The notes under the pieces: generated by a model | Told to the model about the DNA's origin: nothing | The model's input: only the letters and a program-made list of their open reading frames with translations | Databases searched by the model: none | NCBI RefSeq assembly: GCF_014764505.1 | Contig: NZ_JACXWX010000017.1 | Location: forward strand, 1 to 64,000 | Direction of reading: 5' to 3' | From: Phormidium tenue FACHB-886 | GTDB lineage: Bacteria; Cyanobacteriota; Cyanobacteriia; Elainellales; Elainellaceae | Length of the DNA stretch: 64,000 nt | In this document: in pieces, positions 6,084-39,353 of the stretch | Layout: each line of letters opens with the position of its first letter | Numbering within the stretch: the stretch's first letter is position 1 | Translations under genes and position numbers: made by a program

Positions 6084-7096
6084 TTAATTTCTTGTAGAGC
6101 CTGCGCAATGGACAATGCCTTGCGCTGAAACAAAATTAGATTGCTTTTTGAAAACTATGCTCCGCACACTCCTCAAAAAACAACTTGGAGACTTGCAAGC
6201 GAGAATTGCTGTAGCTGTAAAACCATGTGAAATTAGAGGAAATGTAATAAAGCATCTACAAGACGACTAGAGCAACGTTTCTAAGAACGGTAAACAGAAG
6301 AGTAAATAGAATCAGATATTACTAAATTCAAGTATAAAATTTGTAGAAATAGGAACATTTTAGAGTCTAAGTTGATAAAGCAGCAATCGAACTGCTTGCT
6401 CTAGTTCACCTCTTTTTTGACCTCACTTTTTTAGCCTCATTACAGTGAAATAGAAAATTGCACTTCGGCACTTAGCCAGATCGATTGCTTACAAGCGCCA
6501 CCGATCGTCGCTCCAACAAAGCTAGACTCGATATTCTTCCTGCTGATAGGGTCAACGAATTTTGACAATAAGGGAAATAGTACCCGCACGGGCACTATAC
6601 CGATCGCCGCCAAGATTCGACAATTTGTCACAGGTCTCATTCGGAAGCAGCGTTAGGGCAAGCATCTGGTGCAAATACTTTAGCTAATTTCTTCAAATAT
6701 AGCGGTTCCTAATCGCCTGAGGGACTGATTTGCTGCTGTGTGCCACGCTTTGCGCAGTACACAATAGAAACCTGCCTTTATTTAGTGTGGAGCACTCTAA
6801 GGAGCGTAACTTAAAACATGTTAAAGACTCTACCAAAAGACAGATGCTAAAGGTAGAGTAATAGGGATACGCCAGCTAGCAGTATTGCAAATCAATGCGC
6901 TAAATACTGGTTTGAAGGTTGGTATAGCCAATCCTTATCTTTGGGCTCCATAGCTTAAGCAAGCTCTTGAATAACCTGCGTGATCGATGCGGCAGCTGAG
7001 CTACACCTCAGATTAGTAACACTTCTTGTTTTACTAACTCAGCAAAAGTAGAAGAAGTTAGATGATTCTATAACTTTGATATTAGGAATAACCCAT
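6084..7096. other. Non-coding stretch of about 1 kb
   Basis: I see no supportable gene here. A 66-codon minus-strand frame (6440-6640) has no family resemblance and no ribosome site. The sequence is AT-rich with many short stops. The only local signal is AGGA at 7084-7087, which serves the lysozyme gene downstream. Confidence 0.5.
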
Positions 7097-7999
7097 ATGG
7101 AACGATCGCTTGAGCTTTATAGTGACGGTCGCCTATACGAACTGGAAGGAGATTACGCGGTTAAAGTCACTGAAACCCAGGGGCAGGTTAATGCCCTCAT
7201 CACCGCACTACAGTTCAGCACTGCTCAAACACTGTCCATTGCCCCTCCCGAAAAACAACCCCCAACCGTCATTGCTCCTAGAGGATCACGCCGCATCAAC
7301 GACGAGGGCTTTAAGCTGTTAACCACTTTTGAGGGCTGTAAGCTCCAGGCTTATGATGATGGGGTAGGTGTCTGGACGATCGGCTATGGACATACAAAAG
7401 ACGTTTCTGAGGAAATGACTATCACCCAGGCGCAGGCAGAGCAGTTTCTATACAAAGACCTAGAGCAGTTTGAATCCTATGTTGAAGATGCTGTTCAGGT
7501 CGATATCAATGAGGATCAATTCTCTGCCTTAGTCTGCTTCTGTTTCAACGTGGGTCCAGGAAGCGAGGGATTTGGTGGCTCAACATTATTAAGAAAACTC
7601 AACGCTGGAGATTATCCAGGCGCAATTGCACAGTTTCCTGTTTGGAACAAAGCTAATGGAGAACCCTGGCTTGGACTCACGCGCAGAAGACTGGCAGAAC
7701 AAGCGCTCTTCCTTAGCAAGCCTTGGCAGGCTTTCCTCACCTACGAAGGAGACGGACTAACAGGTGAGCAGACAAGCAGCACTCGAACCCTGAAACTGAC
7801 CCATCCCATTATGCAGGGAGAAGATGTGCGCCGAGTGCAAGAAGCGCTGATCAAAGCAGGATTTAATCTTGAACCTGATGGAGCAGATGGATTTTTTGGG
7901 AAAGCAACCAATGCTGCTGCTCAGCAATTTCAGCGGCAAAAAGGATTGACTGTAGATGGAGTTGTGGGGACCCAAACCCTGCAGGCGCTGGGTCTATAA
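7097..7999 (+). CDS. GH24 lysozyme (T4-type) with C-terminal peptidoglycan-binding domain
   Basis: A 300-residue muramidase that should cleave the MurNAc-GlcNAc bond of peptidoglycan. Residues 1-60 form an unrecognised N-terminal region. The GH24 domain (about 65-210) has the catalytic triad Glu79 (TTFEG), Asp88 (YDDG) and Thr94 (WTIGYGHT) at exactly the E-x8-D-x5-T spacing of T4 lysozyme. A PG_binding_1 domain occupies about 232-300 (VRRVQEAL, DGFFGKATNAAAQQFQ). There is no signal peptide, so export or release would need a helper or cell lysis. The ATG at 7097 has AGGA 9 bp upstream; a TTG at 7076 is less likely. The M15 peptidase begins 39 bp downstream. Confidence 0.92.
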   Translation: MERSLELYSDGRLYELEGDYAVKVTETQGQVNALITALQFSTAQTLSIAPPEKQPPTVIAPRGSRRINDEGFKLLTTFEGCKLQAYDDGVGVWTIGYGHTKDVSEEMTITQAQAEQFLYKDLEQFESYVEDAVQVDINEDQFSALVCFCFNVGPGSEGFGGSTLLRKLNAGDYPGAIAQFPVWNKANGEPWLGLTRRRLAEQALFLSKPWQAFLTYEGDGLTGEQTSSTRTLKLTHPIMQGEDVRRVQEALIKAGFNLEPDGADGFFGKATNAAAQQFQRQKGLTVDGVVGTQTLQALGL

Positions 8000-8038
8000 A
8001 TTTTTTTATTACACGATCGAACAGAACAGGAGATAGTT

Positions 8039-8917
8039 GTGGACTCTAATATCATTGAACTTTGCCTAGAGATTAACGAGCGTGATAAAACCGGTATCAG
8101 AGCTAGTTTTCGAGGACCGCTGCAAGATGCACCGAGTGCAGCCTCAACTGCGATCGTCAATGGCTTATCTCAGCAGTTGATCCATCAGCTTCAACTGATT
8201 CTGCCCAATGTGTTTGTCAGCTTTGATGATCTCAGCGTTGATTTGCTTGACGCTGCATATGCCTATGTTCAAGCTGCCGCAAAGCAGGGGCTAGAGCGTG
8301 CTATTCAGGAGCGGGGAACGAAAATGCTAGTGAACTCCTGCTACCGAACGATCGCGCAGCAAATGCTGCTCTACAACGATCGATACAACAACTCTAACCC
8401 CGTTGCCCCTCCAGGAACCAGCAATCATCAAACCGGATTAGCAATCGATATTGAAGATCCCATAGGCTGGGAACCTTACCTGATGCGATATGGCTGGAAT
8501 CCTCTAGCAGGCGATCCACCTCACTTTGACTATACAGGGGGCAACACAGTTGATATTCGTAGCAAATCTATTCTGGCATTCCAGCAGCTTTGGAATAAAA
8601 ACAACCCGAATGACAAGATCGGTGAAGATGGAGCCTTTGGACCTCAGACGGAGGGGGCGCTGAATCAATCCCCGGCTCATGGCTTTGCTAAAGCTCCGTG
8701 GGATGATAAACCAAGAGTATTGAAACTCAGCCAACCTCGAATGGAAGGGTCTGACGTGGAGCAACTGCAGAACGCACTGAAGAAGGCGGGCATTACGGTT
8801 GCGGTAGATGGTGAATTTGGACCGGGAACCGATAAAGCTGTGAAGGAATTTCAGCAGAAGAAAAGCCTGACTGCAGACGGTGTTGTGGGACTTAACACAC
8901 GTGCAGTGATGGTGTGA
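8039..8917 (+). CDS. M15-family D,D-peptidase with peptidoglycan-binding domains
   Basis: A 292-residue zinc peptidase starting at GTG with AGGAGA just upstream. The M15 (VanY/D-Ala-D-Ala carboxypeptidase) motif S-x-H-x-x-G-x-A-x-D supplies His130 and Asp137. The D-x-x-H motif in GDPPHFDY supplies Asp159 and the third zinc ligand His162. It should cut peptide crosslinks or D-Ala-D-Ala stems of peptidoglycan. Two C-terminal segments resemble PG_binding_1: a partial one near 175-212 (GEDGAFGPQTEGAL) and a full one at 226-292. As in the lysozyme, there is no signal peptide and the N-terminal ~90 residues are unassigned. It lies 39 bp after the lysozyme, probably in one transcript. Confidence 0.9.
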   Translation: MDSNIIELCLEINERDKTGIRASFRGPLQDAPSAASTAIVNGLSQQLIHQLQLILPNVFVSFDDLSVDLLDAAYAYVQAAAKQGLERAIQERGTKMLVNSCYRTIAQQMLLYNDRYNNSNPVAPPGTSNHQTGLAIDIEDPIGWEPYLMRYGWNPLAGDPPHFDYTGGNTVDIRSKSILAFQQLWNKNNPNDKIGEDGAFGPQTEGALNQSPAHGFAKAPWDDKPRVLKLSQPRMEGSDVEQLQNALKKAGITVAVDGEFGPGTDKAVKEFQQKKSLTADGVVGLNTRAVMV

Positions 8918-9051
8918 CATACTTCCAAAAGTTTCAACTAAAGCCTAAATGTCTGCTGCATCCGTGTTGCTGAGACTAAGTTATTGGTCTGTCAGGGCGC
9001 TGATGCAGCAATTATCTAGAGATAGAAAAGCCCCGAAATACTGAACGACCC

Positions 9052-11175
9052 ATGACAAAACAAGCCCCAAATATTTATGTCCTCCTAATTGGCATCGACT
9101 ACTACACGCCCAATCGTTGGTACAAAAGCCTCAAAGGAGCTGTACGAGATATTAATTTGGTAAATACAGTCCTTGAGAAAACACTAAAGAACCAATTAAA
9201 ACGAGTTCATCGATTGCTCTCTCCCAACCCAGAAGAGCCAGCTCCTACAGAAGTCAAAGAAGCGCAAAAACCAACCTACGAAAATATTGTTAACACCTTT
9301 AAGACCATTACCGATGAAGCTGCTCCGGGAGAATTGGTTTATATCCACTACTCTGGGCATGGAGGACAAGCAACCACAATTTATCCTGAATTGAAGCAGG
9401 GTGTCGATCAAAACGATGAAGGCATCGTACCAATGGATATTGGAGATCAGGAGGGGCGTTATCTGCGCGATGTTGAGATTACAACGCTCCTGAAACGGAT
9501 GACCGACAAAGGGTTAGTTGTCACGGTGATTCTAGATAGCTGCCATTCTGGTGGAGCAACGCGAGGAGATGCTCAAATTAGAAGTTCAGAACTCGGAGTC
9601 GATACAACAGAGCGATCGGCTGAGAGCCTGGTGGCATCACGCGAAGAATTGCTGAGCAACTGGCGGGAACAGGCTGAGCGAGGCATTGGAGTGGCAGGAT
9701 TGCCCCAAGCCAAAGATTATGTTTTGCTTGCGGCTTGTCGTTCTAATGAATTTGCCTATGAATACCCGGTAAACGGCAGCGATCGTCATGGCGCCTTGAC
9801 CTATTGGATGGTCGATACCTTGACGAGCAGTGCAACCAAAGGACAACCGTTGACGTACAAATTGCTGCACGATCGCATCAACGCCCAAATTCAAAGTAAG
9901 TTTCCCCAACAGCTGCCGATGATCTTGGGTGAGAGCAGCCGACTGGTGTTTGGCAGTGAGATCTGGTCTACTCCCTACACAGTTCAAGTCATCAAGGTGC
10001 AGCCAGAGATTACCCTCAATGCCGGCATGGCACAGGGACTGAGCAAAGGGACGCAATTTTCCATCTATCCGCTCAGCACCACCGATTTCACAGACAAAAC
10101 AAAACAAGTGGCGATCGTTGAAGTCACTAGTGTTGCAGGCGGAGGTTCCTCTGCTAGAGTGTTGCAGCCAGAGGAAGGAGGAATTGCAATTAATGGGACG
10201 ATCGAATCCGGTGCACCCGCGGTTATGGTGTCGGCACCAGTTGATTTGGTTCAACGGGTTCGTCTGGTTGTGGATAAGGAGCCAGGGAATGCAGAGAATC
10301 AGCTTCCTCCAAACTTAGTGAGCAGGCAAAAAGAAGCCCTGGAAAACGTCCGGCAAGCCTTGGCTGGAAATGGCTGGGTGCTTGAGATGAAGCAGGGTGA
10401 GGTAGATCGCTATCAGCTTGCCGTTGGGCGATCGGGTGAGTATGAAATCTGTACACAAAGTGTGATTGAAAACCTGCGCCCTGCCCTGTCTATTGATGAT
10501 CCGAATGCGGCTACTACAGTTGTGCAACGTCTGGTTCACCTGGCAAAATATCAAGCAGTTCAAAGCCTGGATAATCCTGGTTCAAAGCTGGCTCAAGCCC
10601 TAGAAGTTGAGCTACTTACAGCGGATGAGAAGCCCTTTGCGGAACCTGGAAATCCAACGATAACCACGGGTGATATCGTCTGTCTGCGCGTCAAGAACAA
10701 GGGAAATCAACCGCTCAAAGTCGCGGTCTTGGATCTCGAGCCAACCTGGGCAATTTCACAAATCCCGCTGGATGGGTTAGAATCTGCATTTTTCAACCTG
10801 CCACGAGGGGCAGTCCAGGATGTCAAACTGAGTCTAGTTTTACCAGAGGATGGGCAATATCAGGAAGCAAAAGAAACGATCAAGGTTTTTGCCGTCCAGA
10901 ACGGGTTGGCAGACTTCCGGTGGCTCACCTTGCCTGCACTGGATGAGCAGCCTGAAAGCCGGGGCAACAGCCTCAACCAGCAGCTTGAAGGGTTAAAAGG
11001 AGAGATTACGCGAGGGGGAGAGCCAGAGGATATTAATCCACTGAACAATCTTTTGGCAGCGATCGGCGCCGACTTGGAACAACCGCCACTTCCTACAACG
11101 CGAGCAGCCAGAGTGGTTACTAATCCTAAGGATGAGTGGGTGACACAACAAATTCAAATTGTGGTCAAGCAGTAA
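9052..11175 (+). CDS. Caspase-like (C14 / metacaspase) protease, 707 residues
   Basis: The N-terminal ~300 residues form a caspase-hemoglobinase-fold domain. Catalytic His103 is in HYSGHGG and Cys164 in LDSCHSGG, with the first strand at YVLLIGIDYY. Prokaryotic orthocaspases cut after basic residues and are linked to regulated cell death or stress. The C-terminal ~400 residues are beta-rich; a segment near 535-610 looks like an accessory beta-sandwich (DIVCLRVKNKGNQPLKVAVLD). No transmembrane segment or signal peptide is visible. It follows the two peptidoglycan hydrolases by 134 bp on the same strand, so co-function is plausible. The family assignment is firm; the role is inferred. Confidence 0.92.
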   Translation: MTKQAPNIYVLLIGIDYYTPNRWYKSLKGAVRDINLVNTVLEKTLKNQLKRVHRLLSPNPEEPAPTEVKEAQKPTYENIVNTFKTITDEAAPGELVYIHYSGHGGQATTIYPELKQGVDQNDEGIVPMDIGDQEGRYLRDVEITTLLKRMTDKGLVVTVILDSCHSGGATRGDAQIRSSELGVDTTERSAESLVASREELLSNWREQAERGIGVAGLPQAKDYVLLAACRSNEFAYEYPVNGSDRHGALTYWMVDTLTSSATKGQPLTYKLLHDRINAQIQSKFPQQLPMILGESSRLVFGSEIWSTPYTVQVIKVQPEITLNAGMAQGLSKGTQFSIYPLSTTDFTDKTKQVAIVEVTSVAGGGSSARVLQPEEGGIAINGTIESGAPAVMVSAPVDLVQRVRLVVDKEPGNAENQLPPNLVSRQKEALENVRQALAGNGWVLEMKQGEVDRYQLAVGRSGEYEICTQSVIENLRPALSIDDPNAATTVVQRLVHLAKYQAVQSLDNPGSKLAQALEVELLTADEKPFAEPGNPTITTGDIVCLRVKNKGNQPLKVAVLDLEPTWAISQIPLDGLESAFFNLPRGAVQDVKLSLVLPEDGQYQEAKETIKVFAVQNGLADFRWLTLPALDEQPESRGNSLNQQLEGLKGEITRGGEPEDINPLNNLLAAIGADLEQPPLPTTRAARVVTNPKDEWVTQQIQIVVKQ

Positions 11176-32747: not shown

Positions 32748-35700
32748 CTACTCACTGCCATTGGCTCCTAAAGCTCTCAATGCAGCTTTCTGTGCCTCTG
32801 TCAAACCAATGACTCCATTAATATTCATTCCCTCGTAAAGTTTTGGAGACTTGAGTGTTTTTAGGCTCTTACCTGTTTCAAGATTCCAGAGAATAATGAC
32901 TTCGTCTTCACCACTACTCGCCAAAATGTGACCATCTGGGCTAAAGGCAACGGAACGCACCCAATTCGTATGTTTTGCAAAAGTGTTCAAACATTTGCCA
33001 CTACGAGTATCCCAAACTTTCACCGTTTGATCGTCACTACCGCTGGCAAGCATTGTACCATCCGGGCTAAAGGCAACAGACCAGATCCGATCGCGATGTC
33101 CCTTTAAGTTCAGACAATTCCCAGTCTCCAGATTCCAGAGTTTGATAGTCTGGTCTTCACTGCCGCTGGCAAGCATTGTACCATCCGGGCTAAAGGCAAC
33201 AGACCAGACTCGGTTTGTATGTCCTTTCAGGGTTTCGACAGATTTGCCGATTGTCAGATTCCAGAGGTTAATGGTCTGGTTCTCGCCCCCACCCGCTAGC
33301 AGTGCACCATCAGGACTGAAGGCAATAGACCAAACTTTACCGTTATATCCACGCAGCGTTTTGAGGCATTCGCCTGTGATAGGATTCCAGAGCTTAATAG
33401 TTTGGTCTTCACTGCCGCTAGCAAGGAGTTGACCGTTGGGGCTGAAGGTAACGCAGCATACCCAGTTAGTATGTCCATGCAAGGTTGTGCATTTTCCAGT
33501 CCTCAAATTCCAGAGTTTCACCGTTTGATCATCACTACTACTCGCTAATAGCTGACCGCTTGGGCTGAAGGCAACAGACCAAACTCGACTAGCATGTCCT
33601 TCAAGGGATTGCAGGCATTCACCTGTTGTGGAATTCCAAAGTTTGACCGTCTGGTCTTCGCTGCCGCTAGCCAGTAATTGCCCGTTGGGGCTGAAAGCAA
33701 TCGACCAAACTTTGTTGGTGTATCCTTTCAAAGTCTTGAGACATTCTCCTGTCGCAAGATTCCACAGTTTAACGGTTTTGTCTTCCCCACTGCTAGCCAG
33801 CAGTTGACCATCAGGGCTAAAGGCAACAGACCAAACCCGATTGGCATGTTCCAGACTTTTGAAGCATTCTCCTGTCGCAAGATTCCACAGTTTAACGGTT
33901 TTGTCTTCCCCACTGCTAGCCAGCAGTTGACCATCGGGGCTAAAGGCAACAGACCAAACCCGATCGCTATGTCCCTCCAACGTGCTAAAACATTTGCCTG
34001 TTAAAGAGCTCCAGAGTTTGATGGTTTTGTCTTCGCTGCCGCTGGCTAGGGTTTGACCATCAGGGCTAAAGCGGACTGAACTGACTCGCTTTGTATGACC
34101 TTGCAAGGTTTTGAGACATTGACCTGTATGAACGTCCCAAATCTTGATGGTTTGATCTTCACTGCCGCTGGTAAGCAATTGACCATCAGGACTAAAGGAA
34201 ACCGAACAAACCCAATTGCAGTGTCCCTCTAGAGTTTTGAGACATTGACCTGTATGAACATCCCAAAGCTTGATGGTTTGATCATCACTACCACTTGCTA
34301 GAGTTTGACCATCAGGGCTAAAAGTCACTGACCAGATGCGGCTATTGTGTCCTTCTAAAGTTCTGAGACATTCGCCTGTTCTCAGATCCCAGATTTTCAC
34401 AGTCTTGTCTTCGCTGCCGCTGGCTAGTTTCTGCCCATCAGGACTAAAAACGATCGACCAGACTCGATTGGTATGCCCTTTACAAACTAGAGCCTGTTGA
34501 AACTGAGACACTTGCCACAAGCAAATGACTCCGTTGTTATCTCCAACTGCCAGCAGTTTTCCATCTAGTTGGAATGCTAGTGAAAGCGCACTACTAAAAG
34601 GTTCACTAAAAGTAGATTGGCTGAAATTAGAATGTGAAAAATCTACGTGAGGTAGACTGATTCCCTGCAGGTAAGCTTGACGGATAATGAGATGAGATAA
34701 ATCATATCCTGTTAAATCAATTCCTACTTCATGGAGCAGATTAATCACATTTCCAGCCGTATAATTCTTCAATGGTAGAGGTTGGCGTCTTAGGGCTGAG
34801 AGTACCTGAACTGCCCATTTACCTATTTCTGCTTTGCTGAAGCAAGCAGTTAAATAGGACGCAATCGGCTGTAGAATCAGACGAGTTTCACTCTCCCTTA
34901 TGTAATCTTTAGCTGTTGCTTTAATTAACGCATGATTGTGGAGCAAACGAAAATCTTGATGGTTGATCTCATGACAAACTCGTTCCACCAATCGTTCAAT
35001 CGTATATTCCATCACAACTGGCTGTTGTGTAAAGCTAGCTGTGGGTTTTTCCGATGTTTTTTCAATTAGCGATCGTCCCACTAGTCCCGTCAGCGCTTCC
35101 AACAGCCGGTGTTTGAGTACAGGAGGAATGATATCCTCAAGTAACTCTTGAACAGTTACGGGCTCGCGGTTAATCGCCAGCCAATACATAATAGACTGCT
35201 CTAAGCCTGATAAGCGATCGAAATGCTGATCCAGCAATACTCGAATTTCATTAAAGGCAATTGTCTCTTCTTTCAAAAATTCAGCAATGTTGCCAGCAAA
35301 CAACTCTTGAATAGTTGTAGCAATCAGTTTCAGTGCCAACGGATTACCTGCATAGCGACGAATCAATTCTCTTGCCTGCTCTTCCGCCTCCGAGAGCTGT
35401 AGCCCTTTCGCCTTTAAAATCTCCTGTCCACTGGCATCCTCAATCCCTTGCATCTGATAGCAGCGCACAGGTAGGGTTTCTCCCTCCAGAGCAGCAAGTG
35501 CCCTCGGCTTCTCTCGACTGGTGATAATGAAGCAACTTTGATGGAACGATTCGCCTACTTGCTGAAATAATTCTCCATAGCTCTCATATCCTTCTCGGTA
35601 GACTCCTGTTTGCCCTCCTTGAAGAATTGACTCGACGTTATCAAGAATTAACAGACAGCGATGGTTTCGTAGATGCTCTAACAGTCTGGTAATGCTATTC

Positions 35701-36299
35701 GTGGTCGTTTCAGGTGAGTTGGTCTCTGTTTCTTGCTGATTTGAAAGAAACTTAATCATGTTGCTCAAAAGCTGTTTGAAAGGTGGTGCGTCTTTGAGCG
35801 ATCGCCAAATCACATACTCAAACTGTCCTTCAACCATCTGAGCCAGTTTTACCGATAGGGCTGTTTTACCAATTCCTCCCATTCCCAATATCGCTATCAA
35901 CCGGCAACGATGTCTAACAATCCATGTTTCTAAGATTTTTAATTCCTCTACCCGTCCATAGAAAACGGAAACGTCTGGTGCTTCTTCCAAACCAGACAGC
36001 CGCTGTCCAAAACCAGATTGGGATTGGATGAAATCTTCTCCGGAGGACTGGTACTGCTCCTTCAGAAGCCCTCTTAAAACCTCTAGCTTTCCAGCCGGAC
36101 CTGCCGGTGGAAGCCCAAACTTTTCATAAATAGATTTGAGCCGCTTCCGTACGGCTGATGCTTTGATATCCCCAAGCGTAGCAGCAATCTTTTCGGCAGT
36201 GTGCCCTGCCAAAGCCAAACGCAAAGTCCGCAACTCTTCTTCGGAGACACTGCGCTGAGTCGCGATAGTTCTCAAAAAATCTTCAGGAATTTCAAACAC
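32748..36299 (-). CDS. STAND ATPase with 14 WD40 repeats
   Basis: A 1183-residue signal-transduction ATPase. Residues 15-80 form a helix-turn-helix-like domain ([21 protein letters not shown]). An NB-ARC/NACHT-type ATPase follows (about 110-420), with Walker A GMGGIGKT at 139-146, Walker B LLILDNVE, a sensor-like ITSREKPR and a GNPLALKL motif. A winged-helix and helical arm come next (420-570). Fourteen WD40 repeats (about 575-1155) could fold as two seven-bladed propellers. Such proteins oligomerise when the propeller senses a trigger. A classic effector is not evident; the N-terminal HTH may recruit one. The divergent CHAT protease is a candidate partner. Confidence 0.9.
32850..34590. repeat. 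Fourteen ~126-bp WD40-coding repeats
   Basis: The DNA encoding the 14 WD40 units is visibly repetitive, with recurrent blocks such as AGCAGTTGACCATC and GGGCTAAAGGCAAC. Units 6 and 7 (about 33725-33960) are almost identical at DNA level, implying recent duplication or gene conversion. Such arrays can recombine to change blade number and specificity. Confidence 0.8.
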
Positions 36300-37607: not shown

Positions 37608-39353
37608 ATGAGATTTCGTTTAAAGGTGCAGAGAATTGAGCAAAGCTGCTTGTTTGAACTGACATGGGGACAAGCTCAGCAGCTTATTGCCACCCTCAAC
37701 TATTCTCTGCTGCTTGCAGAACGGTATCAGGACTGGCATCGTATCTACCTTAGCTTCTACAAAACTGCAGAGCCTCCGCTTCTTTCAACAGCTTCCCCCA
37801 CCGATGTTCCACTGCGTGGTTGGACTGTTGCGGGCGGGCAACTCGCACCAACGGCGATTAATTGGCACTCTAAGCTCGTTGAAGCTGAAATCAAGCTGCT
37901 TGATGAATTTCATCGCTGGCTACGGAGCGCAGAATTATTTGAGATTCGAGCGACACTTGCCCGTGCGAGTCAGGAAGTAGTCAGCAATCGCCTGCATCAA
38001 ACGCTAGATCTATTTCTCACCTGTAGCCCAATCGAACTGGCTCGGTTGCCCTGGGAAGCTTGGAAGATTGGTGCTGATCTTGCCACTACCGGAACAATTC
38101 GGATTGTCCGCACTCCCGCCACAATTCGATCAACCGTAGAGCCAACGCTGCGACGACCACGAGGACGAAGCAGAATTCTAGCCATTTTGGGGGATGAGAC
38201 AGGCTTAAATTTCCAAACCGATCGCGAAGCGGTGCGATCGCTGGCTCACCTCGCAGAAGTAAAGTTTGTGAGCTGGCAGCCCGGACAGACGGTAACTGAG
38301 GCAAAAGTGCAAATTCGAGATGCAATCGTGGCTGAACCTGGGTGGGACATGCTGTTCTTTGCCGGACATAGCAACGAAACAGACATTGCAGGCGGCGAAC
38401 TAACAATTGCGCCTAATGTTGCGATCACCATTCGTGATATTGCTCCACAGCTTACGGTGGCAAAAGAACGAGGGTTGCAGGTTGCCATTTTTAATTCGTG
38501 CAGTGGTTTGAGCATTGCTGAGTCTTTAATTGATCTCGGCTTTGGTCAAGTCGTCATTATGCGTGAACCGATCCATAATGATGTAGCGCAGGAGTTTCTG
38601 GTGCAGTTTCTTCGGGGGCTCGCCGATCGACAGGATATGTATGAGTCGTTGCTGTCAGCCTGTCAATTTTTGCGCTCAGAAAAGAATCTAATTTACCCGT
38701 CTGCCTATCTTGTCCCTTCTTTGTTTTGCCATCCCAATGGGTCGCGGTTTCGGCTAGCATCTAGTCAATTGCAGCAGTGGGTACGGCGTCTTCAGTCAGT
38801 CCTGCCCACCCACTTAGAAGCGATCGCGGTAGCAGTTGGTCTAGCCCTCAGCCTTTCATCTGCCCAAGCAGTTGGCTTAAACACCCAAATTTGGGCACAA
38901 GCGATCTATTGCGATCTGCCGCATCAAGTTTCCATTTGCCCAGAGCTGCCCCGCGTCATTAATACGACTTTTGCTCAGCAGATTGAGATGACCGCACCAG
39001 GCGCAGACGAGCATTTGGGGATAGCTCCGCGTGACCCCGATCGCACTTACGCCCCTGTTGCCCTGCGATACTGGCAGCCTCAACATTGCTTAAATGGGGA
39101 AGAAGCGCTCGCCTGTGTAATTCATCATCAGCTTAACCAGCGGTTAGCGGTTCCAACGCCTGATCTGTGGATGCTTGGCATCGCGGTTCTGCTAGGGAAG
39201 GGAGCCGAACTTCGCAATCGATCGGGACTGCAAAAACAGCATATTACTCGATTCGCAGCTGCAACACTTTTGTATGGTCTCATCAGTCTGCAGCTTTATA
39301 TTTCCGCTACAGCCCTATTGCCCTGGCTCCTTGTACAGTACCAAATTAAGTGA
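37608..39353 (+). CDS. CHAT-domain protease with CHASE2-like membrane C-terminus
   Basis: A 581-residue protein. An N-terminal ~150 residues of the type seen in cyanobacterial CHAT proteins (VQRIEQSCLFELTWGQ) lead into a CHAT (caspase-HetF) protease domain with His254 (FFAGHSNE) and Cys298 (FNSCSG). The C-terminal ~180 residues hold a hydrophobic segment near 405-420 and two spans near 525-575. These resemble the flanking membrane segments of CHASE2 sensors, but the usual extracytoplasmic core is much reduced. It should be a membrane-tethered protease with its active site in the cytoplasm. GAGG precedes the ATG. Proximity to the STAND gene suggests a trigger-protease relationship. Confidence 0.85.
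   Translation: MRFRLKVQRIEQSCLFELTWGQAQQLIATLNYSLLLAERYQDWHRIYLSFYKTAEPPLLSTASPTDVPLRGWTVAGGQLAPTAINWHSKLVEAEIKLLDEFHRWLRSAELFEIRATLARASQEVVSNRLHQTLDLFLTCSPIELARLPWEAWKIGADLATTGTIRIVRTPATIRSTVEPTLRRPRGRSRILAILGDETGLNFQTDREAVRSLAHLAEVKFVSWQPGQTVTEAKVQIRDAIVAEPGWDMLFFAGHSNETDIAGGELTIAPNVAITIRDIAPQLTVAKERGLQVAIFNSCSGLSIAESLIDLGFGQVVIMREPIHNDVAQEFLVQFLRGLADRQDMYESLLSACQFLRSEKNLIYPSAYLVPSLFCHPNGSRFRLASSQLQQWVRRLQSVLPTHLEAIAVAVGLALSLSSAQAVGLNTQIWAQAIYCDLPHQVSICPELPRVINTTFAQQIEMTAPGADEHLGIAPRDPDRTYAPVALRYWQPQHCLNGEEALACVIHHQLNQRLAVPTPDLWMLGIAVLLGKGAELRNRSGLQKQHITRFAAATLLYGLISLQLYISATALLPWLLVQYQIK

Follow-up and report, generated by a model that had tools for sequence, protein, structure and literature searches.

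The wall hydrolase and caspase genes

The stretch analyzed here (the window) comprises the first 64,000 nucleotides of contig NZ_JACXWX010000017.1 (contig C79 of the 8.93-Mb, 99.9% complete cyanobacterial genome) of Phormidium tenue FACHB-886. Three genes on its plus strand, in the place where the initial annotation had put them and separated by gaps of 39 and 134 bp, encode a GH24 lysozyme, an M15-type zinc peptidase, and a C14 caspase-like protease of the orthocaspase type. The lysozyme gene (positions 7097–7999, 300 amino acids) starts with ATG; an alternative in-frame TTG at 7076 was unsupported by relatives. Its product consists of an N-terminal domain (residues 1–60; 7097–7276), a catalytic domain (residues 77–201; 7325–7699) with the triad E79/D88/T94, and a peptidoglycan-binding domain (residues 240–298; 7814–7990), the Pfam matches being Phage_lysozyme (4.9e-47) and PG_binding_1. 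The peptidase gene (8039–8917, 292 amino acids) starts with GTG and encodes an N-terminal extension (residues 1–33), a domain matching VanY (1.2e-10) with the zinc ligands H130 (8426–8428), D137 (8447–8449), and H162 (8522–8524), and a PG_binding_1 domain (residues 237–291). The caspase gene (9052–11175, 707 amino acids) encodes a protease domain (residues 10–292; Peptidase_C14, 9.7e-19) with the dyad H103 (9358–9360) and C164 (9541–9543), followed by a conserved C-terminal region of 400 amino acids with no Pfam match above the cut-off. All of these catalytic residues were invariant in relatives, and the peptidoglycan-binding domains noted earlier on both hydrolases were recovered. No signal-peptide-like or membrane segment was found in any of the three proteins (maximum 19-residue Kyte-Doolittle means of 1.07–1.18), in agreement with the earlier statement that the hydrolases lack an export signal.

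The third protein has the C14 p20 domain with a His-Cys dyad by which an orthocaspase is recognized from its sequence; both dyad residues were invariant in an alignment of 17 caspase sequences, and its top PDB matches were metacaspase structures. Its score against the EACC1-associated caspase model NF047832 (31.8 bits) was below the cut-off of 140. The label “D,D-peptidase” previously given to the M15 protein is not established. Its second metal motif is of the form DxxH (D159-P-P-H162) with Asp as the catalytic acid, which we take to recall Ply500-type endolysins, and its structure model gave weak and about equal matches to VanXY, LdcB, and Ply500. The zymogen SleC (9h68) was also among these structure matches, mainly through the peptidoglycan-binding domain.

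The catalytic domains of both hydrolases matched phage endolysin families in PHROG (phrog_7, 1.5e-59; phrog_2649, 7e-30) and resembled, below the cut-off, a model of gene transfer agent (GTA) endolysins, as would be expected if the trio were a prophage or GTA lysis cassette left in the chromosome. However, none of 50,697 phage records covered 80% of the GH24 or the M15 protein, the caspase had no PHROG match, and no phage structural genes were recognized beside the trio, either in the window or in the relatives read. Its likeness to a holin-endolysin cassette ends with the two enzymes: none of the three proteins has a membrane segment, and no holin was recognized adjacent to them. A prophage origin was rejected in view of the missing full-length phage homologues and is very improbable; phage ancestry of the two enzymes is plausible, but the unit itself is not a prophage.

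Conservation and neighbors of the trio in other cyanobacteria

Gene order was compared among 36 genomes of the order to which the window belongs, in a sample of 386 genomes covering the phylum, and in a scan of approximately 85,000 genomes of named species. Among the 36 genomes, the closest M15 and caspase homologues adjoin each other in G025 and G026 (strain FACHB-502), with GH24 upstream. Among the 386, a caspase orthologue was present in 11, close M15 homologues (E < 1e-80) in four, and the GH24 N-terminal domain in no more than four, namely the window genome, G043, G133, and G296, where the N-domain GH24, M15, and caspase genes always occur in this order on a single strand. The order and strand of the trio are kept in G025, G026, G043, G133, and G296. 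The species-genome scan added Microcoleus vaginatus HSN003, Microcoleus FACHB-DQ6, Nodosilinea nodulosa PCC 7104, Argonema antarcticum, Microseira wollei, Alkalinema sp. RU_4_3, and several metagenome-assembled genomes (MAGs). Among these, Microcoleus, Nodosilinea, Alkalinema, Microseira, and several MAGs show the trio in the same arrangement. In total, the GH24-M15 pair was found at 19 loci with enough downstream sequence, in several families and many genera. The caspase gene came next at 16 of these, once with an LCAT hydrolase gene between; two of the 16 (341R and PMM_0080) are near-duplicates, and the relatives are not statistically independent. The initial annotation had made its proposal depend on the three genes being neighbors in related genomes, and this they are.

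When the window was compared with FACHB-502, dN/dS was 0.074 for GH24 and 0.047 for M15, indicating that the trio is kept under purifying selection; dN of the caspase was 0.25, approximately three times the hydrolase rate, with dS saturated. Because many loci preserve the gene order and strand and dN/dS is low in GH24 and M15, the arrangement is not due to chance. The hydrolases could still be enzymes of routine wall turnover that adjoin an unrelated caspase, with no joint function; some hydrolase pairs do lack the caspase, and the caspase can be found with no wall enzyme beside it. This explanation is quite improbable, however, given that the same order recurs in several families, that rare genes co-occur exactly, and that other wall enzymes substitute at the same position: at related caspases, the place of the hydrolases is taken by C39 joined to a peptidoglycan-binding (PGB) domain (G012 and G028) or by M74-PGB-GH19 (G005).

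Nearly all complete loci carry genes for STAND, CHAT, or second caspase proteins downstream. In G133, G296, Microseira, 341R, and others, the downstream partner is a further caspase, which is fused to nSTAND1 and WD40 repeats; the other downstream partners were CHAT-NACHT (FACHB-502), CHAT-AAA35, CHAT-FGE, and CHAT-GUN4. An LCAT/PGAP1-like alpha/beta hydrolase belongs to the cluster in FACHB-502, a Microcoleus MAG, Alkalinema, G028, and G005 (loci including L137, L145, and L148). In G017 (L048:604-4491), a protein of 1295 amino acids that joins an N-terminal caspase to an LCAT/DUF7379-type alpha/beta hydrolase is encoded directly downstream of an M15-PGB gene. The caspase of Alkalinema sp. RU_4_3 (L148:10313-13657) carries a full-length serpin in frame at its C-terminus (PF00079, 242 bits), with the reactive loop EAGSEAAAATVVIATRGFNPN and a P1 residue that is Arg or Gly depending on the hinge length. 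Such a fusion, a protease with its own inhibitor fold, is as expected of a protease that needs restraint.

Genes of a contractile injection system (gp19 tube, Pvc16_N, and AAA ATPase) lie directly upstream of the M74-PGB-GH19 and caspase cluster of G005 (L079:700-11029). Wall hydrolases often serve as antibacterial effectors, and the hydrolases could be weapons against other cells, loaded into such a system or freed by lysis, with the caspase as a processing protease. However, this arrangement was seen at one locus, whose hydrolase is of another type, and none such was recognized near the other loci; moreover, no immunity gene was recognized, and the export signal is absent. A role as weapons is therefore improbable. 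Disrupted copies of the module were also observed: in Nodosilinea nodulosa PCC 7104 (L150:5974-8216), a DDE transposase gene splits GH24 between its catalytic and peptidoglycan-binding parts, and plasmid pOSC7112.03 of Oscillatoria nigro-viridis (L170:7953-8549) carries a truncated module-type M15 gene with no caspase gene nearby.

N-terminal regions of the two hydrolases

Both hydrolases have unassigned N-terminal regions, as the initial annotation had stated: a folded domain of 60 amino acids on GH24 and a largely disordered tail of 33 on M15. The GH24 domain is predicted to fold as beta-beta-beta-alpha (pLDDT 70–82). Three relatives carry the same domain on a YkuD-like wall enzyme encoded in a different genomic context, where the fusions (L113:5435-6121, L114:5759-6460, and L115:6306-6992) lie beside nagA/nagB-like genes; this distribution suggests a shared module more than a dedicated inhibitor. 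The matches of the GH24 model in a VIA-align structure search were nearly all lysozymes.

In the structure model of M15, residues 1–21 are disordered. The extension was present in all module M15 proteins, including those at loci lacking the caspase, and absent from unlinked M15 proteins. It had been considered as a mark of caspase-linked copies, an idea rejected when three caspase-less loci proved to have it too; it therefore marks the module, not the caspase. Directly at the end of the disordered stretch, 22 of the 25 module M15 proteins have the motif [RK][AG][SGP][FW], which occurs in 1.8% of random 45-amino-acid stretches; because the 25 proteins are related, this count reflects conservation rather than 22 separate origins. 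Cleavage by orthocaspases and metacaspases takes place after Arg or Lys (PMC8283722), and R21-A22 (8099–8104), the [RK][AG] of this motif in the window protein, is therefore a natural candidate for the cleavage site. The motif could be such a site, and it could equally be a docking motif.

A candidate wall-demolition arm of a cell-death system

We propose, with a probability of roughly 60%, that the trio is the wall-demolition arm of an apoptosis-like caspase/STAND (NLR-type) programmed-death system of cyanobacteria. The self-lysis module suggested in the initial annotation is retained in this form, as a conserved cytoplasmic unit among caspases, CHAT proteins, and NACHT/nSTAND NTPases, whereas its pro-domain part is weakened. 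Since the hydrolases are cytoplasmic and made without export signals, they would be harmless in an intact cell whose inner membrane is whole. We infer the following course of events. A trigger would be sensed, probably by a STAND NTPase, which adjoins the module in most relatives and would be encoded elsewhere in the window genome. Caspase-fold proteases would then be activated and cleave cell proteins, perhaps also trimming the hydrolases at Arg/Lys-Gly/Ala sites. Breach of the membrane would come next, in some relatives plausibly by the LCAT-type lipid hydrolase of the cluster, after which the glycan-cutting GH24 and the peptide-cutting M15, both able to bind peptidoglycan, would dissolve the wall. 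The earlier remark that no holin is evident holds for the surroundings of the trio, and the lipid hydrolase, found in the clusters of several relatives though not in this genome, is a possible answer to it. A stricter version is doubtful, and we advance it tentatively. In it, the caspase would be turned on by an NLR-like sensor and would itself activate the endolysin-type pair through a cut at an Arg-Gly/Ala site (for M15, R21-A22); a lipid hydrolase would stand in for the holin, and wall hydrolases rather than gasdermin pores would be the executioners.

Several observations weigh against the proposed role. At three of the 19 loci (FACHB-DQ6 contig 115, Phorm 6, and Argonema), the pair lacks this C14 caspase, although it lies near CHAT, nSTAND, or CHAT-AAA proteins; since these loci keep the pair, this particular caspase is, in the genomes compared, common beside the hydrolases but not obligatory. 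Divergence of the caspase correlated weakly with that of the hydrolases (r = 0.25–0.28, versus 0.55 between the hydrolases), and together with the caspase-less loci, this weakens the strict model of hydrolases activated by the caspase. The N-terminal regions, which the initial annotation had taken for inhibitory pro-domains, are real but unlike classical pro-domains, the one being found on a YkuD-type enzyme as well and the other being disordered. Basic residues in the GH24 linker were rejected as a caspase-specific site because unlinked GH24 proteins carry them too. The window trio itself is stripped down, with no STAND, CHAT, or LCAT gene adjoining the caspase, and a sensor would therefore have to act from elsewhere. 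A tblastn search of the window revealed no remnant of STAND or LCAT genes after the caspase, LCAT was absent from the whole window genome, and promoter and terminator scans gave no signal above shuffled sequences. CHAT-NACHT homologues, 75–78% identical to the FACHB-502 copy, were present on contigs C78 and C229, each of which ends at the expected LCAT position. Transposase genes (PF13610 and DDE_Tnp_1) lie upstream of the window trio.

The same machinery could also serve developmental lysis with a trigger other than phage, either making necridia (dead cells sacrificed so that filaments break) or recycling stressed cells. The named hosts are largely filamentous (Microcoleus, Microseira, Nodosilinea, and Argonema), and peptidoglycan and outer membrane are always missing in the ghost cells of stressed Anabaena (PMC8894136). 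However, the patchy distribution (caspase orthologue in 11 of 386 genomes, trio in 4 of 386) and the sensors that vary from locus to locus resemble an accessory conflict system, and we consider developmental lysis unlikely, although it deserves more weight than the alternatives above.

The proposed death system has counterparts among known systems. Conflict systems of multicellular prokaryotes with caspase-fold proteases, STAND NTPases, and alpha/beta-hydrolase neighbors have been described by Kaur et al. (2020; PMC7159879), and their System 3 likewise has wall-attacking effectors, namely a lysozyme and a papain-like peptidoglycan peptidase. There, however, an EAD1 fusion recruits the wall enzymes to trypsin-NucA systems, mostly in alphaproteobacteria, whereas the trio is a stand-alone GH24-M15 pair adjoining a C14 caspase in cyanobacteria. 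Neither NucA nor trypsin domains were found in the trio or the scanned neighbors, some neighbors being left unscanned, and no EAD was matched in the trio by Pfam at E up to 1, a search that could miss remote similarity. A caspase-type protease is similarly tied to a peptidoglycan hydrolase where metacaspases share a protein or an operon with amidases, an arrangement for which autolysis was proposed (Asplund-Samuelsson et al., 2012; PMC3501461), but these cases are four Amidase_2 fusions and one Geobacter operon, of other enzyme classes than the conserved GH24-M15 pair. In Caulobacter, host lysis and ghost-cell formation are under the control of LypABC, whose NLR-like immune proteins have protease domains and whose lytic effectors are unknown (2026; PMC13236601); its protease is trypsin-like, not a caspase, and the trio cluster encodes candidate effectors. 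No CARD-NLR/LypABC operon (CARD, trypsin-like peptidase, and NLR ATPase) is present in the putative operon of the window, and among the proteins scanned in relatives, STAND NTPases occur with caspase or CHAT and no trypsin was found. In bacterial gasdermin operons too, a protease, caspase-like or of another kind, adjoins an effector of cell lysis (PMC13236601). No gasdermin was found among the proteins scanned, a scan that was not a dedicated search of every neighbor. The gasdermin effector is a membrane pore, unlike the wall hydrolase pair of the trio. The Csp protease of clostridial spores activates the peptidoglycan hydrolase pro-SleC by cutting its pro-region; it differs in being a subtilisin-type protease acting on the spore cortex, with no STAND genes.

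We found no description of a GH24-M15-caspase unit in the part of the literature searched. The association of orthocaspases with cyanobacterial death is a long-standing one and, to our knowledge, few direct executioners have been proposed; a conserved cluster of a caspase and two wall hydrolases supplies candidates for that role, together with a candidate site of cleavage, making the question directly testable. A self-lysis role of the trio could explain the loss of the wall in dying cyanobacterial cells, and for LypABC-type immune lysis hubs, which still lack an identified lytic effector, the trio would illustrate what such an effector can look like. In dying Anabaena cells, the loss of peptidoglycan is complete and the agent removing it is unknown (PMC8894136).

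At 20–30 kb from the trio, the window also encodes a WD40-repeat NTPase-like protein (32748–36299, minus strand) and a separate CHAT-domain protein (37608–39353, plus strand), possibly another conflict system. In relatives, a small conserved protein of 148–175 amino acids with no Pfam match repeatedly occurs beside the module, often encoded on the opposite strand (L120:2771-3250, L140:9324-9803, and L158:16008-16517).
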